Assembly: GCF_020804225.1 (NCBI RefSeq)
Contig: NZ_WJBI01000005.1
Location: 195,623 to 259,622, forward strand
Direction of reading: 5' to 3'
Source of the DNA: Methanosarcina sp. DH2
Lineage (GTDB): Archaea; Halobacteriota; Methanosarcinia; Methanosarcinales; Methanosarcinaceae
Length of the DNA: 64,000 nt
Shown here piece after piece: positions 36,910 through 57,853 of this stretch. A program made the translations under genes and the position numbers. The notes beneath the pieces were generated by a model. It was given only the letters and a program-made list of their open reading frames with translations. It was not told the origin of the DNA and did no database searches. Numbering within the stretch: position 1 is the first letter of the stretch; each line of letters begins with the position of its first letter.

Positions 36910-37015
36910 TGAGATCGTAAGAGAAGAAGATAAGACCGTAAGAGAAGAAGATAAGATCGTAAGAGAAGAAGATAAGATCGTAAGAGAAGAAGATAAGATC
37001 ATAAGAGAAGAACTT
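36905..37015 (+). repeat. 21-bp tandem repeat, five copies
   Basis: Unit gataagatcgtaagagaagaa, starting at the stop codon of the DUF457 gene and clearly derived from its last codons ('gtcgagaagaactctgatgag'). The repeat lies just outside the frame. The 37016-37270 gap then has a T-tract cluster (ttcattcttttttt, about 37155-37190) that would terminate transcription. Confidence 0.85.
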
Positions 37016-37275
37016 TGAAAGAGCTGCGAGAAAAGAATTCGGATGAGATTGTAAAAAAGCAGTTTATAAGGTCAGAATGAATTTTATAATGAAATAGCCG
37101 CATATTATGAAGCCTGTTATGTAAAGTCCTGCTGTCAAGGTATCTGGTTTTTCATTCTTTTTTTTCATTCTTTTTTTCATTCTTTTTCCTCTGTTTTTCT
37201 CTATGTGATTTTTTTCTCCTGTTCAGGATATTACATCTATAATATATGAACCTGTTATACAACTGTTGTACTAAG

Positions 37276-37406
37276 TGCCTATCCGAAAAGTCAATAGTGG
37301 CACGTTGTAAAGTCACAATAGGTCTATAATATCGAGTATCTGTTCAGGCCCTGTATATCTCTAATTGTAAAAGTTACAGCAGGTCACAACACTTTTCGGA
37401 TAGGCT
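37276..37406. mobile_element. 131-bp MITE with 16-bp inverted ends
   Basis: The left end reads gcctatccgaaaagt and the right end is its exact reverse complement (acttttcggataggc), with one mismatch at the outermost base. Both sides are flanked by CTAAG (37271-37275 and 37407-37411), a 5-bp target duplication. It is too short to encode anything. The ends resemble those of IS4/IS5-type elements, so it was probably moved by a transposase elsewhere in the genome. Confidence 0.8.
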
Positions 37407-37417
37407 CTAAGTTGTAT

Positions 37418-38419
37418 TTACACTTTTGAAGTGGGCTTTTTGTTTAAGAGCAGAAGGATAACGCCCAGTAAAGTAACAACAATACTATTGATGATGATTA
37501 TTTTTCGCAGAACACTTTCGTTAAATGTCTTTTTCCATACCGAAACATATTCGCTGGAAATGTAATTTTCTGCAGGATATTCTTGAAAAAGCTTGTCCAA
37601 CACTGACTTTTCCGAGCCATCCGCTGTATAGATGAAGATTTCGTTTGCATATTCCGGATGAAAATAATCATTCGTTTTCTTATAGTCGAGATTCCTTGTT
37701 ACAAATTCATTAAAAGTGTCCGCATCATACTGATAGAGTCCATAGTTTCTTTTTGCATCAAAGGAGACGTAACAAATATCATAGCTGTTTATGCCTGCTA
37801 TGGTATAGGTTTCATTTTCATAGTTAACCCTGCTGCCGATTGCCCGGGTCAGCATTTCATCGGTATATGCAAAGTGCTTTTTCAGCAATTTCTTTGAAAT
37901 TGTAATTTCGTGGACGCCGTCCCGAGGAAGCCTGCCTTCTTCCAGATATCCTGTACCGTAGGGGATAACAGTCTGATGAAGATAATCCTGTGCTATGGAT
38001 TCAGGTACAGCAATGAGATTCAATTTATCCAGTAATCTGTCTTCGCTTGCAGTCTTATAAATAAGGGTATCTAAATAACTGGTATCATAAAGAATTACAT
38101 TTTCAATCCCGTCCATTGAAGCAATATGAGGAATGTCCTCGTAGGTTATCATCCGATCATAGTTTTCGGAATCGATATCCAATCCAGCACCTCTGGCATA
38201 AACTGCATTAAGGTCACCATATGTGTGGTCTACCTGATAGATAGCAATGATATTGCCTGGGGGTATGGTTTCCGTACAATAACCATTGGTAATCTGAGAA
38301 TATGTGAACAGGGATAAGGCTGTGATAACAAGTAATGTTAGTAAGACTGACAGAATTTTGGTTTTTTTATTTGTGGGGATTATTTTTAGCCAACTCCATG
38401 CTGCGAATGGGGAAGTGTA
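37418..38419 (-). pseudogene. FtsX/MacB-like ABC permease fragment
   Basis: The frame is open from 38419 to 37418. It starts without an ATG: WSWLKIIPTNKKTK, a helix (ILSVLLTLLVITALSLF), then a long extracellular domain of about 230 residues with beta-rich motifs (EDIPHIASMDGIENVILYD, GTGYLEEGRLPRDGVHEITIS), and a second helix near the end (IIIINSIVVTLLGVILLLL). Intact FtsX/MacB permeases have further helices at the C-terminus; these are missing, and no ATPase is adjacent. I read it as a truncated permease. A shortened product from the Met at 38182 would lack the first helix. Confidence 0.6.
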
Positions 38420-38565
38420 TCATAATACTCGGTAGATTCTACTCTATAGATATTAATCTTATTTTTTGTTTACTGGTCCGTTACTTATCAATATACGAGG
38501 CATTATGCGAGGGATTGTGTAATCAAACATTTTCGCAAGTTTTTTAAGCTGTTATTTAGTATTTA

Positions 38566-39453
38566 ATGCGCATGCCCGTGCTAAATCTATACTTTCTCGC
38601 CTTCGAGATTCTGGTTTTAGTGCTCTTTCTGGCCTGTCTGCAAAATGCATGGCAGCGAGGCTCCTATGTAGTCTGGCAATTTCTTGCCGGGGTGCTTTTC
38701 GGCTTGCTGCTGGAATGGGCTACAATCCAACAGCTCGATGCCTACGAATACGGACGCTTTCTTGTAATGCTTGGGCCTGTCCCTGTGGTCGTTGGGGTAG
38801 CCTGGGGAACTATCATCTATAGCGTTTGCTCCTTTTCCGATAAAACCAACCTTCCGGAATGGGTACGACCGGTGCTCGATGGCCTGATGGCCTTGAATAT
38901 CGACCTTTCCATGGATGCAGTAGCCATCCGCCTGGGCATGTGGGATTGGGGAAAAGGTCTTGATTATCAGTACTTCGGTGTTCCTTACAACAACTTCTGG
39001 GCATGGTTCTGGGTTGTGTTCTCATTTTCAGCAAGCCTTCGATTGCTATCAAAGCTTCCCGGCTTCTGGGGACGCTGTTTCTCCCCTGCAGGAGCTATAA
39101 TCTGCGGCACTACAGGCGTGCTTATTACCAACGAGCTCATTACCAACATTCCCAATGACCTGATACATTACGCTACTATCATTGCAGTCTTAGGAAGTGC
39201 TCTGTTATTGGTTTTGGCATTACGCCCGGAAGTCTCGGTCCAGTCTCAGGCTGCATTTGTCTTTCTTGTACCTCTCGGATTTCATGCCTACTTCCTGATA
39301 GCAGGATTAGTTTCAGGCGCCCTCCTGGACCCACCCTTTTTGCTGGTGGTAAGTATAGTTATGAGCATAGTAGCAGTTGGGCTTCATCGAGATGCTCTAA
39401 ATTACTGGTATCGGTCTAACAGAGAAAGCAAAACAGAGAAAACAGGTAATTAG
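38566..39453 (+). CDS. carotenoid biosynthesis membrane protein (CruF/DUF422 family)
   Basis: 295 residues, about eight hydrophobic helices. Family signatures: the acidic pair in NIDLSMDAVAIRLGMWDWG, then YFGVPYNNFWAWFWVV. DUF422 includes CruF, the hydratase that adds the 1' hydroxyl group in C50/C40 carotenoid synthesis of bacteria and haloarchaea. Methanosarcina carries related genes whose product is less clear. No other carotenoid gene is nearby. The start may be the ATG at 38566 or 38572. Confidence 0.75.
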   Translation: MRMPVLNLYFLAFEILVLVLFLACLQNAWQRGSYVVWQFLAGVLFGLLLEWATIQQLDAYEYGRFLVMLGPVPVVVGVAWGTIIYSVCSFSDKTNLPEWVRPVLDGLMALNIDLSMDAVAIRLGMWDWGKGLDYQYFGVPYNNFWAWFWVVFSFSASLRLLSKLPGFWGRCFSPAGAIICGTTGVLITNELITNIPNDLIHYATIIAVLGSALLLVLALRPEVSVQSQAAFVFLVPLGFHAYFLIAGLVSGALLDPPFLLVVSIVMSIVAVGLHRDALNYWYRSNRESKTEKTGN

Positions 39454-39558
39454 ACCACTGACTGACCTCACCTTACAATCCTTTTACGCCTGTCTTTTAA
39501 GGGCCAACCCAACGAGGGAGCATTACAAACGAACATATCTAATTAGTGAGGGGAAAAT

Positions 39559-40476
39559 AATGTCCAGATTTCCATTCTCAACTGGGGTGTAAAACTTTTA
39601 ACAACAATACTTCCTCCTGAAAGTACAAATGTAAAAATTAAATTTGCTCAGTATCATGCTTTTGAAGATCAGGCAAAAAGGCTTGAGATAGCAAAGAAGT
39701 TTATTGAGGCCAAGTTTAACAAGTCCCAGGCACTTCTTGATTACCTTAAACTTGAGGTATCCATAAATTAAATTTGATATTTCGGATGAACTCAAAAAGT
39801 TAGAAGAGGCCAAAACCATTAAAGAGGTTATGGGGGTTGAAGGAGGCCTGGCTTGGAAATACTGGAACGAATTTTCAAAAGCTATCCCTAAGAAATATGA
39901 GTTCTGTTCAAGGATAGATCAGTACAGGCGGCCTATGGGCTCAGGAGATATGGTAAATACATGCTGAACTATGGCTATGCTCTGCTTGAGGCTGAATGCT
40001 TGAAAGCCATAAATACTGTTGGGTTAAATGCTCATGTAGGGTTTTACATGAGATGAACCCAAGCAAGAACAGTTTAGCTTATGACCTTCAGGAAACTTTT
40101 AGATTCCTTGTGGACCTGGCAGTTGTCAACCTGATTGAAAATGGAACAATGGATAAGAAAGACTTATCACGACTGAGAATTACAACCTGAGGTTAAGGGG
40201 GTCAGGGGGTTATCTCATTACTTGGCAGGGAAAACTAAAGAACTTGATTTTGTTCTCCCCGAGTTTGGGGGTCAGAGAGTTGATTCCCACGAAATTAGGC
40301 AAAAGACCCTGAATATTTCCTATTCAGATTGGAAAAAGCTAGGGTTTTCTAAGGGGACTCTACATTACATGAAGCAAAACGCCATGTCAGATAAACCATT
40401 CACTCTAAACAGCCATGTTTTAGAAAGGGTTAAAGCTTGGGAAAACTTAGTTTCTGGGGGTCAGGTTAAGGCTTAG
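39559..40476 (+). pseudogene. cas1: decayed casposase (cas1) of an older casposon
   Basis: Closely similar to the intact cas1 at 56147, but the first about 70 codons are missing, several single-base indels shift the frame (for example in the GFLH motif near 40040), and about 130 codons between the active-site region and the C-terminus are reduced by deletion (about 40195). The C-terminal helix-turn-helix part (40222-40476, ends SGGQVKA as in the intact copy) remains open. It cannot make an active integrase. It marks a first casposon that occupied the same site. Confidence 0.9.
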
Positions 40477-41191
40477 GAGGGTTAGATTTTAGAGAACTAG
40501 AATATTAAGTCTTTTCTGTGAGTTATTATAGAGCGGATCCTAAAACCCAAAATATGCCTTTTTGAATTCCACATTTTAAATAGCTAATTGGGTTTCTCAT
40601 TATATGGGCATTACTGAATTCTGAATAATAAAAAAGTGGATCTTATGATCAACTTATTTACTATACATTTTCTTATTTTTAGAGACTTAGAAGATTTACA
40701 CAAAAAAGAACTACTCAAATCAGAAAGTGCGGAAATTTAGCAATTATCTATGAAAATAAGAATATGAGAAGGCTGAACTTGTAGATATTTAGATATAGTT
40801 TTTTAATAATATAAACGCTAATAGAATATATTCAGTGAATTTTAACTTAAAAGAGTTCCTTGATTTTAAAAATAAATTTGTATCATTTTTTAAAAAAAGC
40901 GTTTTTTAGAGACTCCTTGGTTCGGGTCTTCCTTTCTGTTCCTTGGAACCAATTTAATATTTTGTGGTAAGACTTTCTTAATGTATAACTGCATCTACAG
41001 CCCCTATAATCATACTATCAAAAAATATAGTTTAAAAAGAATGGATATTTATACCCTCCACCCTCCCAATCTAATGCATAAACTTGACCAATCTTATCAA
41101 AAGCTACTCTTTGTTATTTCAATCTGATTTATTTCAATCTGATTTTCATAAAGTATTGATAGATTTAAGTATTTAGAGGGTTTTACAAAGC
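40477..41191. other. AT-rich gap inside the older casposon
   Basis: 715 bp with no credible gene on either strand and no match that I can see to the intact element. It probably contains decayed casposon DNA. Confidence 0.35.
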
Positions 41192-41770
41192 TCATTTCTC
41201 CATTGTTGAAATTGTTGATTTGTCTTTATACAGACCTGCGTTGTAACTTTCTCCAATATCACAATTATTTATGCTTCCTATAGCTGTGGCCTCTCTATAT
41301 AAATTACTGAAACTAGTTCTCGATATATAGCCAGGGAATTTTGACATATCCTTAGAGATACCCCCAATAATATCACCTTTACCTACCCAGTCGGCTTTAA
41401 CGGTCAAAATCTCTTTCTCACCTGTGTTCCCGTTATATATCTCCATCTCAATCTCAGATAGACTTGCAGAATCTAGAGTATTAGATATTTTGAAAACTTT
41501 ATCCTGTGTAACCATGAAGCCTGACTTGTAAGAGCCATAACCTGTCATTTGGTCATATGTATATACTGATAAAGAAATATAAGTTCCATCATCTTTTTTG
41601 GTTACAGACATACTAGTGTCAGTAACTATACTTCTTTCTTTTTCAGTCCAAGATGCAGATGCGTAGGTTTGATCATCACGAATCATTGTTTTTTGTTCTA
41701 GCGCGTCTACGTTCACTGCCATTGAAAGCAAGAGAACAAGGAATAGTAATATCTTATATAGATTTTTCAT
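41192..41770 (-). CDS. secreted protein of unknown function (casposon cargo)
   Basis: 192 residues with a clean signal peptide (MKNLYKILLFLVLLLSMAVNV, cleavage near ALEQ), then a beta-rich, Ser/Thr-rich body (YASASWTEKERSIVTDTSMS, YISLSVYTYDQMTGYGSY). No Cys pair and no recognised domain. It lies between the cas1 and polB relics, so it is probably cargo of the older casposon. The intact casposon has no homologue. A TATA-like stretch (aataatatattatt) lies upstream. Confidence 0.6.
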   Translation of the reverse strand: MKNLYKILLFLVLLLSMAVNVDALEQKTMIRDDQTYASASWTEKERSIVTDTSMSVTKKDDGTYISLSVYTYDQMTGYGSYKSGFMVTQDKVFKISNTLDSASLSEIEMEIYNGNTGEKEILTVKADWVGKGDIIGGISKDMSKFPGYISRTSFSNLYREATAIGSINNCDIGESYNAGLYKDKSTISTMEK

Positions 41771-42063
41771 ATTATCTCCTTCATATAATAGCTAGCAAAT
41801 AAATAATAATATATTATTATTTATTTACATTATTTATTAAGAATAAGATAACTAGTCTATTAAATTTACGTAATTGTTATATCACTAAAATTAGTTACGC
41901 AGTGGTACATAAGGTGTCAATATATTAATCAAGAATAAATAATAGATATGTCATGTTTTTCATAAATGAGGTCTATATGCTCGCTTTTTCAGAATTGATT
42001 AATAACTTATGGACATTACTACAATAAATCCATTTACTAACTCAGTTGAGATTAGCAGGCAGA

Positions 42064-42764
42064 GATCTGGCAAGATATTCTCAAACTACATTATGGGCAG
42101 GTTACTGAAAGGAATATTGAGGAGAAATATTCTAACTTTTATGTAATTTCTCAGCTTGTAGTTGCTACTTCCAATGTGTTGAACAGGTTCAAGAAGCTGA
42201 ATAAAGGGAAAGCCTTGGAAAGAGCAGATTAAGCCTTTTAACTTCTGCCTTGTAGGTACCCAAGCATTTGAGGAAAACGGTAAGGTCGTTAAGCCTTTAG
42301 CTCCTTTCACAAAAAACTATCAGAAAATAGTACATGAACCATTTATTGATTATGAAACTGGGGAAGTTAAGGAAGGATCTCAATATTTCAAACCATTAAG
42401 CAGAACCATCATGCAGTATGTTGAGCACCCAGAAAATAAGTTCGAGGGTAATATTGGAATTTTAGATAGAAAATATATTCAAGCTGATGGGTTGATCTAT
42501 ATTGGAAAGGAAGCAAATAATATTGAAGATCAGCCTTTGGACGTTATCAAGCCTCAAGTTTTCATTAATGAGGAAGAGATAACAAACTTTATTTTGGATT
42601 TGACTCCTGAGGACGCCAGAAAAATAGGGATTAAGCATAGGAGTGAGCTAAAGTATCTTAAGAAAAATGCGAAAGAGGGAAAGTTAAATTTTAATTCCAA
42701 AAATGTGAGAAAAATCATAAACTATTACTATACATCAATATGTGAGCATGATCCAATTTATTAA
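42064..42764 (+). pseudogene. polB: C-terminal fragment of casposon DNA polymerase B
   Basis: About 235 codons that match the end of the intact PolB (WQDILKLHYG..., IDYETGEVKEGSQYFKPLSRT, QADGLIYIGKEANNIEDQ, KLNFNSKNV). One frameshift lies near 42225 (gggaaagccttgg). The natural stop has mutated (TGA to TCA), so the frame runs about seven codons longer (SICEHDPIY). All catalytic motifs lie in the missing part. It runs in the same direction as the cas1 relic, unlike the divergent order of the intact element, so the older casposon was also rearranged. Confidence 0.9.
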
Positions 42765-42772
42765 ACCTGATG

Positions 42773-42803
42773 TCATGAAGCTAGTTGACTAGCTTCGTGA
42801 TTA
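42773..42803 (+). terminator. inverted repeat after the polB relic
   Basis: tcatgaagctagt / actagcttcgtga with a 2-base loop. The same hairpin family follows the intact polB (51006) and HEAT gene 2 (48484), always just after the stop codon. Confidence 0.6.
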
Positions 42804-42905
42804 AGCTATGGAAAACTTGAATTTTCAGTTAAACAATAAGCAAGCTAATCTATGTTGCGTTTTGTTTTCAAAGTGTTTATCTGTTGGAATTTAAAGTTGC
42901 GTTTA

Positions 42906-43370
42906 TCATCTTTTTCTTAGTTTATCTAATCTTTTTTCTTTATTACTTATCGTGGTTGATATATGTTCTAATAGCTCTTTGTATTTTGGTTCTGTAATTT
43001 GGTTCTTATGTATCTTCCATTTTTCTAAACGTTCATCTGATTCTTCAATTGTTAAATTTAGTTCTTCTAGTTTTTCAAAAGTCACTTTGTTGCTCTTTAT
43101 ATCATCGATATAAGCTTCGAGATTTGTTATTGTTTCTTTCTCTGCTAAGTCACGCCGTATTGTCATTTCTTTTGTAATCTTACATGGATTTGATTCCATA
43201 CTTTCTTTTAACGGATAGTAAAATTTGTCAAGGCTATCTTCTAAGTTTCTGATTTCTTTTTCGTTTTTCGTATATATTATCGCTACCATTGACAGGATGA
43301 GTGAGAGCATTGCTATTCCTGTATCTAACATTGCTTGTACTTCCGTATAGTGACTTCTGATCCTGAACAT
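42906..43370 (-). CDS. membrane-anchored coiled-coil protein, unknown
   Basis: 154 residues: an N-terminal helix (TGIAMLSLILSMVAIIY, about 16-32), then a continuous charged coiled coil (ESDERLEKWKIHKNQITEP etc.). It diverges from the 390-residue membrane protein with 67 bp between starts, so the two probably share a promoter region. The pairing of a coiled-coil membrane anchor with a multi-helix membrane protein in a mobile element is suggestive of exclusion or defence functions, but no known family is recognised. Confidence 0.6.
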   Translation of the reverse strand: MFRIRSHYTEVQAMLDTGIAMLSLILSMVAIIYTKNEKEIRNLEDSLDKFYYPLKESMESNPCKITKEMTIRRDLAEKETITNLEAYIDDIKSNKVTFEKLEELNLTIEESDERLEKWKIHKNQITEPKYKELLEHISTTISNKEKRLDKLRKR

Positions 43371-43436
43371 TCGTTAATATATTTGTCTCAATACTAAACA
43401 TATTACTTTATATATTCGTACTAAATATCTGGATCT

Positions 43437-44609
43437 GTGGCATCACTGTTTAAAAAGTTCTTCAGAATATTTAAAATTAATATAAACATCTGGCTGTTGA
43501 TAATACTATTATTTTTTTTAACTTTAATTTTGATGATTTCTGTATATGGATCATTAATCGTAGCAGGACAGCTCAATGAATTGCTATTGGGAAACTTCTC
43601 TTCAGTGAATTTAGAGGTATTTACTGAGTTCATTATAATAGCCGGGATAGCTTTTACTTGCTTTATTTTTCCTTTGAATTATATTTTACTAAGAAATTCA
43701 AAGCCCGAAGAAAAATTTATTAAACCTAAATATTTAGTTCCTCTTTTTATTATTCATATCCTATTAGTATATGCCACTGTATATGTGTCCATAGCGTTTT
43801 TTTATGTGATAACGTATGGAGTTTTTATGCCTCCTGAAATATATTACATATTCAATAATAATGTAATAAACTTGAAGGAGTATCAGTTAATTCACGCTCA
43901 GTCTTACGTAACAGGAATATTTTGTGTATCAATAATTTTGTTGACGTACACTTTATATTCTTTATTTTGTGCATATGAGATAAAGAAAGGCTTTTTCAAT
44001 TTATCTTACTCTCAAATAATTAATAAAATGAGTAGTCATTTCGAAGTAGAGAAAAACGAAACAAAGACTGGAGAATCTAGATATCGAAGTTTAATAGAAA
44101 AAATGTTTAATTATAAAATGGCAGAAATCTATTATAGATCTTTTATTTACTATTTTTCAGCCATATGGATTATAGAGCCGGTAATTATTACGTTTGTTGT
44201 TTTGAGGGACACTATCTCTAAAGAATTTCTCACTGTTGTTTTAACTATGAATGACCGGTTTACAATTACATTTTTTTTGCTGAATATAATTTTTATTTTT
44301 ATTCCTGCCTATATTTTTTCCAATCTGAGAGAAATTTACGGGTTTAATATTACAACGTTTCTTAATAAAAACAAAATTGATAAAGGCATAGATTTTTATT
44401 GCAAGTATTTAAGTATAATTACCTCGCTTTTCATAACTCTGAATATATATGGAATATATCATATCCTTGAGGAGTATGGGAATATCGTTCCTAACACCAA
44501 CGCCAAAGCTGCTCTTTCACTTATTGTAATTTATGCAACAAATTATGCTTTTTCGAAACCAAGGGAATTACTTAGTGTATTTCTTAAGTATATAATATAC
44601 GAATCATAA
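43437..44609 (+). CDS. eight-helix membrane protein, unknown (casposon cargo)
   Basis: 390 residues starting at GTG. A TATA box (ctttatatattc, about 43403-43414) sits about 28 bp upstream and no ribosome site is present, so the transcript is probably leaderless. About eight hydrophobic helices; a polar cytosolic loop between helices 4 and 5 contains KMSSHFEVEKNETKTGESRY. No transporter or channel motif is visible. It ends 230 bp before the junction of the two casposons, so it belongs to the older one. Confidence 0.65.
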   Translation: MASLFKKFFRIFKININIWLLIILLFFLTLILMISVYGSLIVAGQLNELLLGNFSSVNLEVFTEFIIIAGIAFTCFIFPLNYILLRNSKPEEKFIKPKYLVPLFIIHILLVYATVYVSIAFFYVITYGVFMPPEIYYIFNNNVINLKEYQLIHAQSYVTGIFCVSIILLTYTLYSLFCAYEIKKGFFNLSYSQIINKMSSHFEVEKNETKTGESRYRSLIEKMFNYKMAEIYYRSFIYYFSAIWIIEPVIITFVVLRDTISKEFLTVVLTMNDRFTITFFLLNIIFIFIPAYIFSNLREIYGFNITTFLNKNKIDKGIDFYCKYLSIITSLFITLNIYGIYHILEEYGNIVPNTNAKAALSLIVIYATNYAFSKPRELLSVFLKYIIYES

Positions 44610-44699
44610 TTAACTCCTAGTGGAAACGAACAGAAGAATAAAGCAATAAACTTGGTTTCTTAAAAGTAGGGCTGTGATCATTTCTACAAAAGCATTCAA

Positions 44700-44827
44700 A
44701 AAATTTGCTTTTTTATTAATCTGACTTTATAGAAAAGAATTAATTTTAGCTAGGGCAATTTTGAAAATTAATGGTTGTGCATAACTTCTGCACAAGCGTA
44801 CAAAATATTCGAGATCCCTATATCCCC
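44700..44827 (-). repeat. right terminal inverted repeat of the older casposon
   Basis: Reading outward-in (minus strand from 44827): gggga(t)atagggatct, then a diverged middle, then 'ttcttttctataaagtca', which also occurs in the left TIR of the intact casposon. It faces that TIR across the 13-bp target sequence. This marks the end of the older element. Confidence 0.8.
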
Positions 44828-44840
44828 TTAATTTAGTGCG
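44828..44840. repeat. target-site duplication, left copy
   Basis: ttaatttagtgcg, repeated exactly at 63207-63219. The limits are ambiguous by up to four bases because C/G runs border it (cccc...gggg), so the duplication is 12-17 bp. That agrees with the 14-15 bp described for casposons. Confidence 0.85.
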
Positions 44841-45010
44841 GGGTAATAGGGATCTTGAATTTTTAGTGCGTTACTGACAAATTTTCACAGCACTGCTTTT
44901 TCTAAAAATTACCTTAACTAAAATTCGTTCTTTTCTATAAAGTCAAATAAATAAAAATATCAATTTTTGCAGAGTAATCACAACCTCTATTTTTCAAAAA
45001 TTTACCATGT
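44841..45010 (+). repeat. left terminal inverted repeat (outer)
   Basis: Starts ggggtaatagggatcttgaa; the first 31 bases equal those of the right end. The match continues with gaps ('ttactgacaaatttt', 'ccttaactaaaa') over at least 80 bp, and weaker similarity reaches about 170 bp. Confidence 0.9.
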
Positions 45011-45059
45011 GAATAAATAATACGTTTTATAATAAATGGTTTATAATAAAATTAAATTT

Positions 45060-45165
45060 CTTACCTTTTGCAGATGCATTACTCAATTTTTAGAAAGTTG
45101 CCTCGACCAAAAAATACGTTTTTTTCATAAATTTGTTAAAATAAGTGAAAGTTTTTGTATTGTAT
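45060..45165 (+). repeat. degenerate inner copy of the left TIR
   Basis: 'tttttagaaagttgcctcgac', 'aaaaaatacgttttttt' and 'ataaatttgttaaaataag' follow the order of TIR sub-blocks. They match the inner right copy at 62830-62990 better than the outer ones. The outermost G-run block is missing. The stretch 45165-45308 also holds a possible coiled-coil coding fragment on the minus strand (KLAKSRARSEGLERHNSKL), out of frame with the next gene. Confidence 0.6.
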
Positions 45166-45308
45166 ATTTATCCTGTGCCACCTTCTCAAGTTCTGCCCTT
45201 AGCTTGGAATTGTGCCTTTCTAGCCCCTCAGATCGAGCCCGGCTCTTTGCAAGTTTTCCGGGATCAGTGGACTTTGATAATGATAATTCATTATTTTATC
45301 TATCAACT

Positions 45309-46001
45309 TCAGCATTTTTTTTCCGGTAACACCTGTTTTAGATTGTGTTTTTCGAAGTTTTTAACTTCTCGCATCTTTTCCCAAATTTCACCCCCCCAAA
45401 TTTTTAGGGTTAATAATAAAAATACAATGATTGAAAAAACAAAAGCAAATAACGGTGGTTGGTTAAGTTTTTTATATGTATGAGCATAAATTGTTATAGA
45501 TATGAAAATACAAGCGAGTATAGCAGTTGTATCTAAAAAGTCAATTTTACAAATTCTCTTGAAAAAGGTAATATTATAAAAATGGGGAGTATCCTGTTCT
45601 AAAGAAATAAAAAAAGAAATCATGTAATAAGAAAAACAAATTATGTACACAAGGAGAACTATAAAGAAAAGATATGAGATAAGTAAAAGCCAATTAAATT
45701 TTTCAAATATAGAGTCAGAGATGAAATAAACAAGCATGCCGTTGTACATTTCAACGGAAATTACAAAATAAGCAAGAATAACGAATAAGCTTTTAAATAA
45801 ATCGATTGTAGAGTTAAATTTGTCATTAAACTTTCTTTGTTCTTCTTTTGTTTTATTTAGTTTCCTTAATGGATTTAACTCAATATCCTTCTTATAATTG
45901 AATAGACTTTGAAGTACCAAAATAAAGATCGCTATGAATATTCCATACAATGCCCCAATTGTTTGCATTATTGTTGCAGGCAACCACGTAGGATCACTCA
46001 T
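45309..46001 (-). CDS. membrane protein of unknown function (casposon left end)
   Basis: 230 residues with four or five hydrophobic helices (IMQTIGALYGIFIAIFILVL; LFVILAYFVISVEMY; NWLLLISYLFFIVLLVYIIC; TTAILACIFISITIYA; FAFVFSIIVFLLLTL). The loop between helices 1 and 2 is long and charged (KKDIELNPLRKLNKTKEEQ). No family recognised. About 125 bp upstream of the start (46122-46171) it has the same TTAAACAACA boxes as the HEAT genes, which suggests common control. Confidence 0.6.
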   Translation of the reverse strand: MSDPTWLPATIMQTIGALYGIFIAIFILVLQSLFNYKKDIELNPLRKLNKTKEEQRKFNDKFNSTIDLFKSLFVILAYFVISVEMYNGMLVYFISDSIFEKFNWLLLISYLFFIVLLVYIICFSYYMISFFISLEQDTPHFYNITFFKRICKIDFLDTTAILACIFISITIYAHTYKKLNQPPLFAFVFSIIVFLLLTLKIWGGEIWEKMREVKNFEKHNLKQVLPEKKC

Positions 46002-46121
46002 CGAATAAGTATACTATGCATCTATTTAATAAATTTTTTGATGTGTTGATTAAGGTGTCCAGATACACATACATAAACTGAAGTTACCAAAACTTCCACC
46101 ATAGTTCATTATTCTCAGCGA

Positions 46122-46171
46122 ACTTGTTGTTTAACTTGGTTGTTGTTTAACTTAAGTGTTGTTTAACTTAA
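46122..46171 (-). promoter_or_regulatory. TTAAACAACA boxes, three copies
   Basis: On the minus strand: three 'agttaaacaaca' units 16-17 bp apart, upstream of the gene at 45309-46001. The rest of the gap (46172-46534) lies downstream of HEAT gene 1. It holds only short broken frames (for example a 21-codon piece, MFKLANIVEQIAEYERII, on the + strand near 46428). Confidence 0.7.
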
Positions 46172-46534
46172 AATCCAAGTGAAATATGTGGTGTTTTAAT
46201 ATCAGTTTTGAGCGCTTTATAATACCTGTTTGGGTCAAATCTACATACTAAGATACTTCACAAATAGCAGTAGAAAGCATTTAAGTTATATCGAAATAGA
46301 AAAAGTTGAAGATACTGGTTTTACAAGAAGCAGAAAAAAACGGTAAGACAGTTTATAAAGCTAAGCAGGCATATTAATTGAATAAAGTACGCAAAGTGTA
46401 TTTAGTGATAAGAGTATAATGAGATAAATGTTCAAGCTTGCAAATATAGTAGAGCAGATTGCTGAATACGAAAGAATTATTCAGACAGAAAACTAGATTT
46501 CTTTAAGTTAATACTTTTTTTTATCTATATACGC

Positions 46535-48334
46535 CTAAATCAGCTTATACTGTTGACACAGCTGTATTATTTGAATCATAAATCCAATAAATGTAACTAT
46601 ACTTGCAGGTGTTTGGACTAAATCACCTAACTTTGATTGTTTAGATTCATTCAATTTACTTAGAATCTCCATTGTTTTATCGTTTTGAGGAAGATAGCTA
46701 ATCGACTTTTCAAGTTCATCCAAGCGATCTTGTAAGATTTTGTTTAAATCATCTATTTGTTTAGCTAAATTAGAGTTTGATACTTCGTCAGAATTAATGC
46801 CTAGTTGTGATATCTTGTTTAGGTTTTCAACATCTGCTTTAACTGTGCTGAGCATCAAAATAACATTAGAATAATTTAATCCAATGTTAGAAATGTTAAA
46901 ACTCATACAACTTAATTTATCTTTAGTATTGACAATTTCAGCTGTTACTTCTTCTTTAGCACTGACAATTTCACCTATTATTTCTTTTTTAGCACCTATT
47001 ATTTCACTTTTCATATCTTCTCTAAATTCAAGAAGTTTACCATCTAACTTTTGCGCTGGGACTACTTTCATCGTAGGGATCTGCCCAAGCACAAAAAGCA
47101 AGGCATCATATTGTTTCGCCAGATCTCTTTCGTTTTTCATTACCTCAATCTTGTTTAGAAGATATCTATTTTCAGGAAGATCTGCTACTTTCATTTTCAA
47201 CAAATAAGCAAGATCCTCTACTCTTTGTGTCATTTCCTCCTGACTACTAACTTCCCATTTCTGAACTTCTCCATTGATTTCACATGCAATGTCTTCTGTA
47301 TCAGTTCCTTTCGCTTCTTTGCATACGGTCTTTGCTTTTTCTTGGATTTCTTTTAGAAGCTCTTTTAAATGTCTGTCCAATATTGGTAATCCTTTTCTCA
47401 GAACTTCTGTCGCAAACGGTGTCTTTTTATCGGTGTTTCTCATTAGTTCAGCTGCATGATCACAATATTTTCTATAAAAACTAAGTTCATCTTTTTTTGC
47501 CCCAAAGTCCAGATTTTCTAGATTCTGGACTTCTTTTAGTGCATTCGCAAGGTTATTAATAGCTTCAAAGAGCAATTCTTTGCTTTTTGAACTGCCAACG
47601 GCATATTTAGCTTCTGCCAGATATTTGTCAACTTCTTCTTTTGCCTCCTGCTTTTTGAAAATTATTATATGGAAAGAACGATAAAAATGGAGACAAAACT
47701 GAGAAGGATTATCCCATCTCGGCCCCTGTGCTGCTTTTTCAAAAAATGAGATTGCTTTTTCCAATTCCTGTTTATAATCTTCTTCTTTTTCTGCTGTGGA
47801 TGCCTTGAATATAGAAACCTTTCCAAGAGAGTGGTTTGCATAGGCTCTCACTGAACTGTATTTATTTGTGGTTAATTGAATTAAGTCGTTCCATGCCTGT
47901 TGTTTATCTGGAACTTCAGGAAAAATAGAACCAAGGACATCGGCGACCTCCATCCTTACATCACTTCTCTCATCACTGGTAAGTCTATGCAAATCGTTCC
48001 ACGCCTGTTGTTTATCTGGCACATGAGAAAACGCAGAACCAAGGGCAAAGGAGGCCTCCATCCTTACATAACTGTCTTCATCACTGGTAAGTCTGTGTAA
48101 GTCGTTCCATGCCTGTTGTTTATCTGGAACTTCAGAAAACATAAAACCGAGGGCAGGGGCGGCTTTCCTCCTTACATAAATGTCTTGATCATTGGTCAAT
48201 TTATGTAAGTCATTCCAAGCTTGTTGTTTATCTGGTAGTTGTGGAAAATTATCTTTTAATTGATTCAACGCCTCATAGCGTTCTATGAGATCATCACTTA
48301 GGCAATGTTTGTGAATCTCCTCTTGGTCTATCAA
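46535..48334 (-). CDS. HEAT-repeat protein 1 (4 repeats), casposon cargo
   Basis: 599 residues from a TTG (MIDQEEIHKHCLSDD). Residues about 30-180 hold four 36-residue HEAT repeats of the type PDKQQAWNDLHRLTSDEDSYV. Residues about 180-370 are a helical domain shared with the three sister proteins (FFEKAAQ, FYRSFHIIIFKKQEAKEEVD, PILDRHLKELLKEIQ). A coiled coil follows (AKKEIIGEIVSAKEEVTAE) and then a hydrophobic C-terminus (ASIVTFIGFMIQIIQLC), so the protein may attach to a membrane. HEAT solenoids bind proteins or nucleic acid; the partner is unknown. Leader: TTAAACAACA boxes and the mini-ORF ATG GTG TTA GGC AGT TGA ending in the start codon. Confidence 0.8.
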   Translation of the reverse strand: MIDQEEIHKHCLSDDLIERYEALNQLKDNFPQLPDKQQAWNDLHKLTNDQDIYVRRKAAPALGFMFSEVPDKQQAWNDLHRLTSDEDSYVRMEASFALGSAFSHVPDKQQAWNDLHRLTSDERSDVRMEVADVLGSIFPEVPDKQQAWNDLIQLTTNKYSSVRAYANHSLGKVSIFKASTAEKEEDYKQELEKAISFFEKAAQGPRWDNPSQFCLHFYRSFHIIIFKKQEAKEEVDKYLAEAKYAVGSSKSKELLFEAINNLANALKEVQNLENLDFGAKKDELSFYRKYCDHAAELMRNTDKKTPFATEVLRKGLPILDRHLKELLKEIQEKAKTVCKEAKGTDTEDIACEINGEVQKWEVSSQEEMTQRVEDLAYLLKMKVADLPENRYLLNKIEVMKNERDLAKQYDALLFVLGQIPTMKVVPAQKLDGKLLEFREDMKSEIIGAKKEIIGEIVSAKEEVTAEIVNTKDKLSCMSFNISNIGLNYSNVILMLSTVKADVENLNKISQLGINSDEVSNSNLAKQIDDLNKILQDRLDELEKSISYLPQNDKTMEILSKLNESKQSKLGDLVQTPASIVTFIGFMIQIIQLCQQYKLI

Positions 48335-48389
48335 CTGCCTAACACCATAGGTTTCGATAAATCTTAATGCTTAAAACAGTTTCTTTTTG

Positions 48390-48451
48390 CTTGTTGTTTA
48401 ACTCGAGTGTTATTTAACTTGGTTGTTGTTTAACTTAAGTGTTGTTTAACT
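48390..48451 (-). promoter_or_regulatory. TTAAACAACA boxes before HEAT gene 1
   Basis: Four units on the minus strand (one changed to ttaaataaca), 15-16 bp apart, followed by 'caaaaagaaac' and the conserved 'ttttaagcattaag' step, then the start about 55 bp further on. Confidence 0.75.
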
Positions 48452-48483
48452 TAAAATCCAGGTTTTTTTTTTTCAATAGCTTA

Positions 48484-48546
48484 TTCATGAAGCTAGTCAA
48501 TAAACCAGCTTCATGGAGCCGGAATTAATAATGTTGGCTTATACTA
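48484..48546 (-). terminator. hairpin after HEAT gene 2
   Basis: Minus strand: catgaagctgg / ctagcttcatg with a short loop (about 48487-48515), then an oligo-T run within 30 bp. About 60 bp around it are almost identical to the hairpin after polB (51006-51068), including 'ccggaattaataatgttgg'. Confidence 0.65.
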
Positions 48547-48582
48547 TTTACTTTGAAACCTAACTCATTTATAGATTAATTT

Positions 48583-50865
48583 TCAATGAGCTATTTTAAC
48601 TAGTATAGTAGTTGCAAAATTAATCAGTGAAATTGCTGCTGAGAATCTTTGAAGTATTCTATCATATTTTGATTGTTTAAACTCGTCAACCCTTTCAGAA
48701 TATTCTTTATATAGTTCATAGTTATCTTTAGAAGATTCATATACTAAAATTTTGATCTCTTCCAAGCGTTTGAAAATATCATTGTTTAAACCATTTAGCT
48801 TCTCAGCCTGTATGGAATCCAATTTTTCGATAGAGATTGTATTTAGGCCTTCTATCTTACTCAGTTTTTCCAATTCCTCTTTTATGGATTTGAGATTTGA
48901 TATAACATCAGCCGAATTCAGTTTGATTTTTGAAATATCAAAGCTTATGCAACTCAACTTATCTTTAATGTAAATAATTTCACCGAAGATGAGGTCAAAT
49001 TTTTGAAATTTTTCATCTAACTTTTGGTCTAATTCTTGCTCTGAAACTACTCTCACAGTGGGGATTGATCCAATCACATAGCTCATAGTCTCAAGCTGCT
49101 TCATAAGATTTGTTTCATGCCTCATTGCTTCAATCTTGTTTAGAAAATACTCATTTTCGGGAAAGTCTTTAACTTTAATTTTTAAAATACAAGCAATGTC
49201 TTCTACTTTTTGCGCTACTTCTTCTTGACTACCACCAATTTCCCATTTCTGAACTTCCTTACTGACAGCGCAAGCAATTTCTTCCTTAGCAGTTCCTTTC
49301 GATTCCTTGCAAGCTATCTTTGCTTTATTTTGAATTTCTTCGAGAAGCTCTTTTAGATTTCTGTCAAGAATAGGCAGCCCTTTTTTCATAGCTATTGTTG
49401 CAAAAGGTGCTAATTCTTCAGCATCTTTCATCAGTTCTTCTGCACGATCACAATGTCTTCTATAAAAATTAAGCTGACTTTTCTTTATCTCCAAGTCTAG
49501 ATTCTCCAAATTCTGGACTTCTTTTAATGCTTCTGAGAGGTTTTCAACAACTTCAAAGAGCAATTCTTTGCTTTTTGAACTGCCAACGGCATATTTAGCT
49601 TCTGCCAGATATTTGTCAACTTCTTCTTTTGCCTCCTGCTTTTTGAAAATTATTGTATGGAATGAACGATAAAAAGGAAGGCAAAACTGAGCTGGATTAA
49701 CCCAGCTTTTATTTGATTCTTGTGCTGACTTTTCGAAAAACTCAATAGCTTTTTCCAATTCATTCTTGTAATCTTCTTTATTTTCTGACTGGGAAGCCTT
49801 AAAGATAGAAACTTTTCCAAGAGAGTGATTCGTATAGGTTCGCACCTCCCAGTCTTCGTCATTAGTCAATTTATATAAGTCGTTACACGCCTGTTGTTTA
49901 TCCGGCATGTGGGAAAATGCAGAACCAAAAGCAATGGCGGCTCTAGACCTCACATCACTGTTTTCATCACAAATTAATCTATGTAAGTCGTTCCACGCCT
50001 GTTGCTTATCCGGCACGTGGAAAAATGCAGAGCTAAGAGCATTGGCAGCCCCAGACCTCACATAACTATTTTCATCAGTAGTCAATTTATGTAAGTCGTT
50101 CCAAGCCTGTTGTTTATCCGGCATGTGGGAAAATGCAAAACCAAAAGCAATGGCGGCTCTAGATCTCACATAACTGTTTTCATCAGTAGTCAATTTATGT
50201 AAGTCGTTCCACGTCTGTTGCTTATCCGACATGTGGTAAAATGCAAAACCAAGAGCATTGGCAGCCCCAGACCTCACATAACTATTTTCATCAGTAGTCA
50301 ATTTATGTAAGTCGTTCCACGCCTGTTGCTTATCCGGCATATGGGAAAATGCAGAACCAAGAGCAATGGCGGTCCAAAATCTAATATTTCTGTCTTCATC
50401 ATTAGTCAATTTATGTAAGTCGTTCCATGCCTGTTGTTTATCCGGCATGTGGGGAAACGCGGAACCAAGGGCTTCGGCGGCCCTAGGCCTCACGTTACTG
50501 TTTTCATCAGTGGTCAATTTACGTAAGTCGTTCCACGCCTGTTGCTTATCCGGCACGTGGAAATATGCAGAACCAAGAGCATCAGAAACCCTATATCTCA
50601 CATACCAGTATTCATCATTAGTCAATTTATGTAAGTCGTTCCACGCCTGTTGCTTATCCGGCACGTGGAAATATGCAAAACCAAGAGCTTCAGCAGCGTC
50701 AGATCTTACACGACCGTCTTCATCAGTTGTCAATTTATGTAAGTTATTCCATGCCTGTTGCTTATCTGGCAACGATGAAAATTTATTTCTTAACTTATCC
50801 AATGCCTCGTTACATTCTTCCCACTTATTAAAATATTGGTTGTGAATTTTCTCTTGATCTATCAA
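48583..50865 (-). CDS. HEAT-repeat protein 2 (9 repeats), casposon cargo
   Basis: 760 residues from a TTG (MIDQEKIHNQYFNKWEE). Nine 36-residue repeats (PDKQQAWNDLHKLTTDENSYV type; one has SDKQQTW, the last DKQQACNDLYKL) fill residues about 30-360. The shared helical domain follows (FCLPFYRSFHTIIFKKQEA; PILDRNLKELLEEIQ), then a predicted coiled-coil region (about 560-730) and a hydrophobic end (FSAAISLINFATTILVKIAH). Several repeats are nearly identical in DNA, so recent expansion or conversion is likely. Leader and mini-ORF as in the sister genes. Confidence 0.82.
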   Translation of the reverse strand: MIDQEKIHNQYFNKWEECNEALDKLRNKFSSLPDKQQAWNNLHKLTTDEDGRVRSDAAEALGFAYFHVPDKQQAWNDLHKLTNDEYWYVRYRVSDALGSAYFHVPDKQQAWNDLRKLTTDENSNVRPRAAEALGSAFPHMPDKQQAWNDLHKLTNDEDRNIRFWTAIALGSAFSHMPDKQQAWNDLHKLTTDENSYVRSGAANALGFAFYHMSDKQQTWNDLHKLTTDENSYVRSRAAIAFGFAFSHMPDKQQAWNDLHKLTTDENSYVRSGAANALSSAFFHVPDKQQAWNDLHRLICDENSDVRSRAAIAFGSAFSHMPDKQQACNDLYKLTNDEDWEVRTYTNHSLGKVSIFKASQSENKEDYKNELEKAIEFFEKSAQESNKSWVNPAQFCLPFYRSFHTIIFKKQEAKEEVDKYLAEAKYAVGSSKSKELLFEVVENLSEALKEVQNLENLDLEIKKSQLNFYRRHCDRAEELMKDAEELAPFATIAMKKGLPILDRNLKELLEEIQNKAKIACKESKGTAKEEIACAVSKEVQKWEIGGSQEEVAQKVEDIACILKIKVKDFPENEYFLNKIEAMRHETNLMKQLETMSYVIGSIPTVRVVSEQELDQKLDEKFQKFDLIFGEIIYIKDKLSCISFDISKIKLNSADVISNLKSIKEELEKLSKIEGLNTISIEKLDSIQAEKLNGLNNDIFKRLEEIKILVYESSKDNYELYKEYSERVDEFKQSKYDRILQRFSAAISLINFATTILVKIAH

Positions 50866-50919
50866 CTGCCCAACACCATGAGTTTCGATAAAACTTAATA
50901 TTTAAAACTTTTTCTTTTT

Positions 50920-50980
50920 GGTTGTTGTTTAACTTGAGTGTTGTTTAACTTGAGTGTTGTATAACTTGGTTGTTTAACTC
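50920..50980 (-). promoter_or_regulatory. TTAAACAACA boxes before HEAT gene 2
   Basis: Four units on the minus strand (one reads ttatacaaca), 11-16 bp apart, next to 'caaaaagaaa' and the start region. Same arrangement as the other three HEAT genes. Confidence 0.75.
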
Positions 50981-51005
50981 AAAAAAACCCGAATTTTCCC
51001 TGATG

Positions 51006-51068
51006 TATTCATGAAGCTAGTCAATAAACCAGCTTCATGGGACCGGAATTAATAATGTTGGCTTATAT
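51006..51068 (-). terminator. hairpin after polB
   Basis: Minus strand: catgaagct gg tttatt gac tagcttcatg (about 51009-51038), 10 bp after the polB stop. A run of seven T follows about 25 bp on. It is nearly identical to the hairpin at 48484 and related to 42773 after the polB relic. It probably ends the core operon before the HEAT 2 promoter. Confidence 0.65.
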
Positions 51069-51076
51069 TCACACAT

Positions 51077-53761
51077 TCAAGAGTAATAATATTTTAGAAT
51101 TTTTTTCACATTTTTGGAATTAAAATTTAACTTTCCCTCCCTCGCTTTTTTCTTTAGATAATTTAATCCATTTTTGGACTCGATTCCTATTTTTCTGGCT
51201 TCTTCAGGGGTTAAAGCCAAAATAATGTTCTTTATCTTTTCTTCATCAATGAAAAGCTGCGGCTTTTCTACACCCAAAGGCTGGTCCTCAATATTGTTTG
51301 CTTCCTTTCCAATGTAAATCAAGCCGTCAGCTCGAATGTGTTTTCTCTCTAAAACTCCAATATCGCCCTCAAACTTGTTTTCAAGATGATCAATATACTG
51401 CAAAATTGTTCTACTCAGCGGTTTAAAATACTTAGATCCTTCTTTGGTTTCTCCAGTTTCATAATCAATGAATGGTTCGTAGACTATCTTCTGGTAATCC
51501 TTTGTAAACGGAGCCAGAGGCTTGACGGCCTTACCGTTTTCAATAATTGCCTGAAATGCTACAAGGAAAAAGTTAAAAGGCTTTATCTGCTCTTTCCAGT
51601 CTTTCCCTTTATTCAGCTTCTTGAACCTGTTCAATAGATTGGAAGTAGCAACTACAAGCTGAGAAATTGCATAAAAGTTAGAATATTTCTCCTCAATATC
51701 CCTTTCAGTAATCAGCCCATAATGCAGTTTAAGAATATCTTCCCATATTTCAGCCTGCCAATCCTCAATTGATTTAGGAAAAGGATTTGTCAAGTGTCCT
51801 AGCCCATGAAGCTTGTAAGATCGTTCATCTTCCATAAATTTGATTTTTTCATTTTCATAAGTATACAGAGCATATCTTTTCGAGGAAATTCCATAAAACC
51901 AGAGGTTTTCTTTTTCAGGTTTAAGTAGAGGAATATCCAAGTTATAGGGATTAAGAGGTTGAAAGAACTCTGAAAGTTCCTTAGCTCTTTCAGGAGGCAC
52001 AAACACAGAATCAGTATCCGTGTAAGCGTGGATAACTCCAAGCTCTTTTAACCTGGCTTCAGCCATGGTTAAGAAAAGCCTGGCTCCTGAGGTAATCATA
52101 GCACCAAGGAGAGGATGAAAATACTTGCCAGGCTCCTCAAACCTGTTTTCTCCTGTCACAAAACTCTCAAGCCCATAAACTTCAATTTTACTTTTCTTAT
52201 CTTCTGGGTTAAGCTCAATGAATATTCCATAGCCGAGAGCATTAACAAGGATCTTCATAGCCTGAGCTCTGCTTGATAACTGCTGAAATTCAGGTTCCTT
52301 TTTATCAATCTTCTTTAACTGTCCTTTGATCTTTTGTCTTTCTTCTACAAGTACCTGGATAACGTTGTCTTTTTCAGGATCAATATCAATTCCAAGAATC
52401 TTTGTTTTCTTTAATCCCTTCTGTATCCCTTTAGGAATGAATTTCACAGCCTCTATGATCTTTGGAACCTTACCAGTAAGGAGGTATGAACCTATAACAT
52501 CAGGTAAAGAATAGCACATCTCAGAACTGGAACTCAGATAATTGATTCCTACATTAAGTCCTGTGTTGTCTTCTTTGAAATCCATCCTAGTAGGTAGAAT
52601 ATCTTCGTCAGGCTGAATTTTAACCATAACATTAAGCAATTTCCATATGTCCTGGTTCTGAAGATCTGAAAGCTTCAGGCTTGAAAGGAACTCCTTAATT
52701 TCCTCCGTAACGTCCTTAATTTCCAGACTTTCAGCTATTATATATTCCCAGATTCCCATTAACATAATAACTGTAGGATACATGCTTGTAAAATCAAGAA
52801 CTGTAACCTTTGTGGGTACTTTCCTGATTTTACACTCTGTTCTTCCTCCATAATAGGAAGACATTATATGTCCAATGACTTCATCTGGAAAATTTGGATT
52901 CATTTCCAGGAACGGTTTTACTCCTAACTGCTCAAGAGCATGTTTTCCAATGGAAGCTTCACTATAAATTTTCGTTGGAGGTATGCGAATCTGATAAACC
53001 TTGAGTTCCTTAATTAGTGCCTCATATACTTCATAGGTAGCGTCAACATCAGTAATGTTGTAATCAATGTACTTTTCAGTAACCTTTCCATGTTTAACTC
53101 CCTTCATCTTCTGAGTAGGAGTGTTAAGCATCTTTGCTGCTTGCTCAAGGGAAATGTGCCTGGTTTCTTTTTTCTGAAGGAGAACTTCAGCTATTTTTTG
53201 GACGTCCAGAAAATAACCTGAGAAATAATTCTCTCCTTTGTTTTGCTTGGTAGTTGTGAATCTGAAACTGTAGGCATCTCCAAGCTTTTTAATTACTATA
53301 GGTGGGTTGAAAGGGTCATCTGAGAGGGTAAGGGTAAAGCCTCCCCTGTTTCTACCTTTTGAATCTCCTGATCTCTTTGCTAGCCTGCTTAAGTCAAAGG
53401 CCAGATTAAATCCAACACAGAGGGTTTTAAGCCTAAAGATTTCAGGATAAAAAACATCGTCTACAAACTCGTCCAGGGAATACAGGCTTATATCATGTTT
53501 TCTTGCATACTTTTCTACGGTTTTTATTTCCTTTTCACTCAAGTTTGTTGGATCATAGAACAAACCCTCAAACTGAAAATAGCCGTTATGGAAGATCTGA
53601 AAAGATCCAATTGTGAGGTTTTGTTTCTGATCTGTAATAGTTTCCGTATCAAAAACCAGTAACCTTGAATGCATTAAAGGATCTCTGAGGATTTTAAAAC
53701 TCCATTTTGCTTTAGGCTTTCCTGGTTTACGAGTGAAGGGGCGAACTGCAATTTTGGGCAT
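51077..53761 (-). CDS. polB: family B DNA polymerase of the casposon
   Basis: 894 residues with all catalytic motifs: exonuclease I FDTETI (about 37), exo II GFNLAFDLSRL (about 118), exo III YNITDVDATYEVYE (about 233), polymerase motif A LDFTSMYPTV (about 322), motif B KILVNALGYG (about 512) and motif C AYTDTDSVF (about 596). It is the replicative enzyme expected to copy the element. Its gene overlaps the HNH gene by 35 bp and is the last of a five-gene leftward operon. The C-terminal 230 residues occur again as a relic at 42064. A hairpin follows the stop. Confidence 0.95.
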   Translation of the reverse strand: MPKIAVRPFTRKPGKPKAKWSFKILRDPLMHSRLLVFDTETITDQKQNLTIGSFQIFHNGYFQFEGLFYDPTNLSEKEIKTVEKYARKHDISLYSLDEFVDDVFYPEIFRLKTLCVGFNLAFDLSRLAKRSGDSKGRNRGGFTLTLSDDPFNPPIVIKKLGDAYSFRFTTTKQNKGENYFSGYFLDVQKIAEVLLQKKETRHISLEQAAKMLNTPTQKMKGVKHGKVTEKYIDYNITDVDATYEVYEALIKELKVYQIRIPPTKIYSEASIGKHALEQLGVKPFLEMNPNFPDEVIGHIMSSYYGGRTECKIRKVPTKVTVLDFTSMYPTVIMLMGIWEYIIAESLEIKDVTEEIKEFLSSLKLSDLQNQDIWKLLNVMVKIQPDEDILPTRMDFKEDNTGLNVGINYLSSSSEMCYSLPDVIGSYLLTGKVPKIIEAVKFIPKGIQKGLKKTKILGIDIDPEKDNVIQVLVEERQKIKGQLKKIDKKEPEFQQLSSRAQAMKILVNALGYGIFIELNPEDKKSKIEVYGLESFVTGENRFEEPGKYFHPLLGAMITSGARLFLTMAEARLKELGVIHAYTDTDSVFVPPERAKELSEFFQPLNPYNLDIPLLKPEKENLWFYGISSKRYALYTYENEKIKFMEDERSYKLHGLGHLTNPFPKSIEDWQAEIWEDILKLHYGLITERDIEEKYSNFYAISQLVVATSNLLNRFKKLNKGKDWKEQIKPFNFFLVAFQAIIENGKAVKPLAPFTKDYQKIVYEPFIDYETGETKEGSKYFKPLSRTILQYIDHLENKFEGDIGVLERKHIRADGLIYIGKEANNIEDQPLGVEKPQLFIDEEKIKNIILALTPEEARKIGIESKNGLNYLKKKAREGKLNFNSKNVKKILKYYYS

Positions 53762-54086
53762 AGTCTATCAGCTCATGACCAAGTTTGATTAACTGTTTTC
53801 CAATTTCCCTTAGATATGCTCCGACGCTTATCAGCTGAAAAGCTACCTTTTCCAGATACGAGGCATTTTTTGACCTGGATTTTCGAGGTACTTTATTTTG
53901 TTCAGCTGTAATTATGGCATGGCAATTTTTGCAAAGAGTTGTTACAAGGTCAGAATTACTTCTCCCGAAGATATGATGTTCCTCAAATTCCTCATGATCA
54001 AATTCCCAACAAATATTGCAATGAAGATCTGACTCTTCATTTTGCTTATTTTCCGTTATATTTTTTTGATTAGTTTCTTTGCTCAT
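53727..54086 (-). CDS. HNH endonuclease of the casposon
   Basis: 119 residues: a charged N-terminus (about 20), then a zinc HNH core CNICWEFDHEEFEEHHIFGR...LCKNCHAIIT shown by its key residues CxxC, EEHHIFGR and CxxCHAIIT, then a helical tail. EHH and NCH keep the catalytic and metal histidines. Many casposons carry an HNH nuclease of unknown function, probably nicking or resolving during replication. It overlaps the upstream 67-residue gene by 4 bp (ATGA) and polB by 35 bp. Confidence 0.88.
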   Translation of the reverse strand: MSKETNQKNITENKQNEESDLHCNICWEFDHEEFEEHHIFGRSNSDLVTTLCKNCHAIITAEQNKVPRKSRSKNASYLEKVAFQLISVGAYLREIGKQLIKLGHELIDYAQNCSSPLHS

Positions 54087-54286: not shown

Positions 54287-54297
54287 GGTTTCACCTC

Positions 54298-57790: not shown

Positions 57791-57853
57791 TGAGTTAAAC
57801 AACATTCAAGTTAAACAACACTCGAGTTAAACAACAACTAAGTTAAACAACAA
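57791..57853 (+). promoter_or_regulatory. TTAAACAACA boxes before HEAT gene 3
   Basis: Four perfect 'agttaaacaaca' units, 15-17 bp apart, then 'gcaaaaagaaaccgtttt' and 'aagcattaagatttatcg', then the mini-ORF and the TTG start at 57910. Confidence 0.8.

Follow-up and report, generated by a model that had tools for sequence, protein, structure and literature searches.

A decayed casposon remnant stacked against an intact family-2 casposon at a tRNA-Leu fragment in Methanosarcina

The locus and the genomes compared

The window, that is, the whole 64,000 bp stretch of the methane-producing archaeon Methanosarcina sp. DH2 that was analysed (bases 195623–259622 of a contig of 272 kb; genome size 4.6 Mb), carries an intact casposon, a transposon of the kind thought to be the origin of the Cas1 of CRISPR, and, beside it, relics of casposon genes together with a further casposon end. 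The relatives of this genome are those of the genus Methanosarcina. A scan of the collection for named relatives returned two weak loci only, from Methanosarcina sp. MSH10X1 and UBA5 (both in genome_contigs); viral_contigs gave none. All of the elements lie within an island that is inserted relative to most of the genus, and the features at its outer limits are:

37223–63420, island; 16 relatives have the flanks nearly joined
38566–39453, plus strand, carotenoid-biosynthesis-like flank gene (PF04240, Pfam)

In these 16 genomes (L014, L015, L017–L020 and L023–L032), the homologue of the left side of the window (ending at 36.1–37.2 kb) was found less than 0.5 kb from the homologue of the sequence that begins at 63.42 kb, and the junction in G008, which was read directly, contained no casposon and no tRNA fragment. 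The left edge of the island carries a MITE-like insertion of 143 bp (37270–37412) with 22-bp inverted repeats (CCTATCCGAAAAGT), which is absent in G010 and G023. The flank gene was found inside a casposon in G004 (C1:884302–885249) and G028 (C113:1128–2069), where the order is tRNA-Leu, TSD, tip, TIR, gene, cas1, and in G009 and G023 it has fragments of cas1 as neighbours. The gene may be casposon cargo that travels.

An intact family-2 casposon at a tRNA-Leu fragment

The right-hand part of the island is occupied by the intact element, referred to here as the young casposon:

44827–44840, left copy of the TSD, CTTAATTTAGTGCG, between the old and young casposons
44841–63205, young casposon, family 2, intact, 18,365 bp (18.4 kb)
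44841–44968 and 63077–63205, TIRs of the young casposon, 77% identical over 130 bp
51077–53761, minus strand, young polB, 894 aa, intact
56147–57373, plus strand, young cas1 (casposase), 408 aa, intact
63206–63219, right copy of the TSD, CTTAATTTAGTGCG
63215–63282, minus strand, decayed tRNA-Leu gene fragment (3′ part), targeted by the casposon

The product of the young cas1 matched the casposase of M. mazei (6OPM_A) along its whole length (residues 1–403, E 3.6e-208) as well as Pfam Cas_Cas1 (E 1.7e-69), and the polB product gave a match to Pfam DNA_pol_B (E 6e-6) that was above the cut-off. A family B DNA polymerase gene adjoins cas1 in eight casposons. An ORF at the HNH position (53727–54086) recurs in relatives, with a match to Pfam HNH (E 0.35) that falls below the cut-off. 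Judged by these sequence features, namely a casposase-type Cas1-solo, PolB, TIRs and a 14-bp TSD at a tRNA 3′ end, the young element is a family-2 casposon.

Its two TSD copies are identical in all 14 bases (CGCACTAAATTAAG when read on the minus strand), one base more than the 13-bp target sequence given in the preliminary description of this locus. The target overlaps the 3′ end of the tRNA (CGCA), and the M. mazei casposase likewise generates 14-bp TSDs that start with CGCA at the 3′ end of tRNA-Leu (PMC6977970). Orthologues of the tRNA-Leu fragment were found in G010, G011 and G023, and a weak one in G001.

The polB-side arm of the young casposon is 6.2 kb long and holds two HEAT-repeat genes and a membrane-protein gene. 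The element has four HEAT-repeat genes, and long inverted repeats are formed by such genes within it. Iterons of 16 bp (GTTAAACAACA) are present at 46125–46180, 48392–48463, 50907–50994, 57776–57860, 60592–60676 and 63005–63057; all four of these genes have iterons nearby, as does the right end of the element, and a short iteron copy also follows the old polB relic. A second TIR-like copy that lacks the tip (62844–62931) lies inside the right end, and internal extra end copies like this one were also seen in G003, G009, G001 and G011.

A second casposon end across the shared TSD

A second casposon end adjoins the left copy of the TSD, with the order 44700–44826 (end), 44827–44840 (TSD), 44841 (first base of the young casposon):

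44700–44826, TIR of the old casposon, tip ...GAGATCCCTATATCCC, directly left of the TSD

When compared by BLAST within the window, this end (44700–44827) was 75.6% identical over 131 bp to the left TIR of the young casposon (E 3e-17) and approximately 70% identical to the right TIR. Its tip, GAGATCCCTATATCCC, differs from the AAGATCCCTATTACCC found at both young tips (the compared tips being TATATCCC for old versus TATTACCC for young). These end identities, and gene identities of 80–82%, indicate that the second element is distinct from the young one.

The pattern made by two tips facing each other (CCTATWWCCC-N6..18-GGGWWATAGG) occurs in three places in 31 whole genomes, all of them casposon/casposon junctions, and the reversed-pattern control occurs in none, hence the arrangement is not a product of chance. 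As a distinct second end faces the young tip at a junction pattern seen only between casposons, a second casposon used the same target, and we consider it almost certain that this one tRNA-Leu-derived site has served at least two distinct casposons. The tandem arrangement put forward in the preliminary description is borne out in this respect, and the rearrangement of a single inverted element with no second set of ends is contradicted by the presence of the second end and by a young casposon that is complete with an exact TSD. The genome is a 37-contig draft, and the old end could in principle be an assembly artefact or an unrelated AT-rich repeat in chance juxtaposition; this is exceedingly improbable, as the window lies within one 272-kb contig, the junction pattern is confined to casposon stacks in the 31 genomes and the same layout recurs in G007, G009, G011 and G030.

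Comparison of ends gave an ambiguous answer as to whether the old end is a polB-side or a cas1-side end. Measured against the young casposon, it is nearer to the polB-side end (bootstrap 0.91). The casposon on contig 17 of this genome (C17) gives the opposite tendency, the old end being nearer to its cas1-side end. A search of 37000–44700 found neither a left end nor a TSD on that side for the older element, which is therefore classed only as a casposon remnant. A sequence at 39541–39560 (TAATTAGTGAGGGGAAAATA) that resembles the TSD plus a tip was considered as a decayed left end and TSD. It was discarded, since this flank sequence is present in G015 as well, in a TSD-less form and with no cas1.

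The polB relic and the old arm

Between the flank gene and the old end are the following features:

39545–39562, plus strand, left junction, host leader (with RBS-like GGGG...ATG) joined to cas1 at codon 66/67
39553–40478, plus strand, cas1 relic spanning codons 67–408, interrupted by stops and frameshifts and shortened by an internal deletion
40479–42025, spacer between the cas1 and polB relics
41192–41770, minus strand, spacer ORF with a paralogue elsewhere in the genome
42026–42764, plus strand, relic of the C-terminal part of polB, aa 667–894 (BLAST)
42906–43370, minus strand, cargo ORF of the old arm, 154 aa, no Pfam match
43437–44609, plus strand, cargo ORF of the old arm, 390 aa, still open, membrane protein predicted by eye, no Pfam match

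Both relics are real and lie on the plus strand, pointing the same way as the preliminary description had it. In BLAST comparisons of 38000–44839 within the window, the cas1 relic (blocks 39559–40208 and 40216–40478, plus strand) was 82% identical in nucleotide sequence to 56351–57375, and the polB relic (42026–42836, plus strand) was 80% identical to 51788–50970. Past the stop of the polB relic, the homology with the young polB arm runs on for about 70 bp, to around position 42836. Their kinship with the intact genes is thus upheld, but the cas1 relic is closer to the cas1 of the C17 casposon (85.6%), its closest intact relative, than to that of the young casposon (81.8%). The different nearest relatives of the two relics speak for derivation from different elements but are no proof of it, because the casposons of this genus are mosaic, and the cas1 and polB of C17 itself fall in different clades.

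In all eight intact casposons compared (the young casposon, C17 and two each from G007, G009 and G011), polB and cas1 are divergently oriented. The polB relic is directed rightward and stops 2.06 kb short of the old end, and polB-side arms in the elements with both ends located, apart from the young one, measure 1.4–2.0 kb. The direction and distance of the relic match the normal polB-side arm of a casposon inserted in the reverse orientation. The same geometry was found in G011:C54, where a reverse polB arm (539–2990) adjoins a forward casposon (3007 onward). The polB-side end also faces the tRNA in C17, G009a and G009b, and a reverse insertion here would be normal. In G023, a polB fragment of another lineage (46% amino acid identity) occupies the same position, pointing right, approximately 1.9 kb from the end. 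The claim that the older element lost its left end and was then rearranged is accordingly only partly supported, and the rearrangement is unsupported as stated, since polB fits an unrearranged reverse arm.

No homology was found between the 154-aa ORF, the 390-aa ORF or the 1.5-kb spacer and the casposon arms of relatives, arms being element-specific. A search with the tip pattern (up to three mismatches) found no lost casposon ends between the cas1 and polB relics. The spacer is edged by short repeats that are dispersed genus-wide (40523–40603 and 41954–42025), the second of which stops exactly at the start of the polB relic.

The cas1 relic and its junction with the host flank

The cas1 relic points right, and for this reason it does not fit a reverse element. 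Its junction with the host leader is also present in G011 (93.5% over 153 bp) and G023 (90.5% over 105 bp), and in G001, where an incomplete extra copy of the flank gene lies next to it. The block made up of polB, cargo and end was not found in these three genomes. The comparison suggests that the leader/cas1 junction is ancestral and probably stems from a different, older insertion, which argues against rearrangement of the decayed element as the source of the cas1 relic. Because its fusion to the host flank is common to two to three other species, the cas1 relic probably represents a third, older layer.

A single old casposon in the orientation of the young one, with its left end deleted and its polB inverted or moved to the right of cas1, would be an alternative source of both relics, and one that the ambiguous side of the old end and the mosaic nature of casposons allow. 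A plus-strand cas1 followed by an end 4.35 kb further on would fit a forward element (cas1-side arms are 2.4–5.8 kb), and resemblance to the C17 casposon is common to the old tip and the cas1 relic. At least one inversion plus relocation of polB would be needed, however, polB sits and points as in an unrearranged reverse arm, and other species share the cas1 junction but not the polB block, and we therefore regard a single old element as rather unlikely.

Order of the insertions at orthologous sites

The orthologues of the tRNA-Leu fragment in G010, G011 and G023 adjoin the same host gene as in the window (63400 onward). All three carry an old-type end (TATATCC...) at the fragment and lack the young element, and G010 has two successive old ends (2020141 and 2020673). 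The young element is thus the latest layer at a reused site and, taken together with the sixteen genomes in which the flanks lie close together, this indicates that the site was used repeatedly, with the young element last. The greater age of the decayed element, claimed from the window alone, agrees with both its differing end and these loci, which have the old but not the young type. The order cas1, polB, end, tRNA recurs elsewhere in the genome analysed here (G000:C29:125509–132051, mirrored) and in G007:C1:2438351–2445583.

These loci also bear on the idea that recombination duplicated or broke a single element, in which case both the relics and the additional end would be copied or inverted pieces of the young casposon. 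TIRs and TSDs would be available for such recombination, as would the long inverted repeats formed by the HEAT-repeat genes. This is very improbable given that nothing is missing from the young casposon, which has its two ends and an exact TSD, that the relics have diverged from it by 18–20% and the extra end is unlike either of its ends, and that old-type ends occupy the site in species that lack it.

A probable stacking history in three steps

The history that we favour, and consider probable, has three steps: a forward remnant, a reverse remnant and the young forward element. As read from the sequence, each insertion joined the casposon ends (CCC/GGG tips) into the 14-bp site, which starts with the four terminal bases of the tRNA 3′ end (CGCA), and duplicated the site. 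Since only one side of an inserted element retains the tRNA portion of the target, a later element would land between the tRNA and its predecessor; therefore, the young element would adjoin the tRNA fragment and older ones would have been pushed outward. The first step would be an early forward-oriented casposon, of which the piece of cas1 joined to the flank gene would be a remainder. In the second, a casposon entering in reverse would have given rise to the polB-cargo-end block (42026–44826), the DNA between these two layers having presumably been deleted, and the young forward-oriented casposon would then have entered the same 14-bp site. Counted against this three-step history are the ambiguous side of the old end and the failure to find the left end and TSD of the older element or elements.

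Stacks elsewhere in the genus

Among the elements with both tips located (n=8), the TSD copies matched in 14 of 14 bases in seven. Six of the eight adjoin another casposon end on the tRNA-distal side and none has an end between itself and the tRNA, with the exception of the second-layer element in G011; this set is small and was hand-picked via cas1 and end matches, so the tRNA-distal pattern is a lead rather than a test. In CRISPR, new spacers join next to the leader. Stacking on the tRNA-distal side agrees with one-sided targeting and, by analogy, may resemble this leader-proximal addition of spacers. The data suggest that repeated targeting needs no more than a decayed 3′ tRNA fragment, and that casposons insert in both orientations.

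Three stacked casposons were seen in G011 (C54:2983–3016 and 13291–13324; L123 and L125). The middle one has unequal target copies (AAAAGAAGAGTGCG versus ATAACTTTAGTGCG, 9/14), which recall reports that casposons can transfer their own target sequence. At least five more casposon ends were found in the genome that contains the window (G000), on contigs 17, 28, 29, 32 and 36 (L002, L004, L005, L121 and L122), most of them adjoining 3′ ends or fragments of tRNA-Leu, and this genome gave 26 cas1-like matches in total, some of which are CRISPR cas1. Casposon relics are abundant throughout the genus. Beside the tRNA-Leu fragment of the C17 casposon (L002 1600–1850), an ORF that by eye is tyrosine recombinase-like starts to the right of the fragment, and because of it this fragment may be the att site of another integrated element.

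Discussion

Tandem family-2 casposons in M. mazei and other Methanosarcina were reported by Krupovic et al. 2016 (cited in PMC9939771, PMC6563490 and PMC10359463). As far as those tandems are described in the citing papers, the stack in the window is like them in being head-to-tail, in having only a TSD between the elements, in its tRNA-Leu-type target and in the casposase family, and differs from them in that the outer layer is decayed and probably reverse and is dated by orthologous old ends. Adjacent casposons, some of them decayed, are also known from Methanococcoides burtonii (MetBur-C1 to C3) and from Methanolobus psychrophilus, where a remnant lies beside a casposon (PMC4046053). The authors did not find TIRs for the M. 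psychrophilus remnant (PMC4046053), whereas an old end and a shared TSD are present here.

Entry of a new element into the TSD of a resident casposon, as proposed here, has a parallel in the mini-casposon of M. mazei Go1, a recent, engineered tandem that arose in vivo by insertion into the ‘left’ TSD (PMC10359463). NitNF5-C1 and NitNF5-C2 of Ca. Nitrosopumilus adriaticus are likewise two casposons at one target, but they belong to family 1 and their target is protein-coding (ef-2) (PMC6563490). Tandem casposons in Methanosarcina are already published, and the stack in the window is a new and unusually well-dated example, not a new kind. Since this kind of structure has been described, the gain is a dated comparative example and not a new system.

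If successive casposons always insert between the tRNA and the element before them, the casposon stacks of Methanosarcina would be ordered archives, in which the order outward from the tRNA records the order of invasion, much like spacers counted outward from the leader, and some decayed tRNA-Leu fragments still receive elements across speciations, a proposal whose chances we judge to be about even. Tandem insertion with duplication of the target is the step thought to turn a casposon into a CRISPR array. The locus described here is a natural stack whose layers can be ordered by orthologues, three species having only the old layer and sixteen having the flanks without the island.
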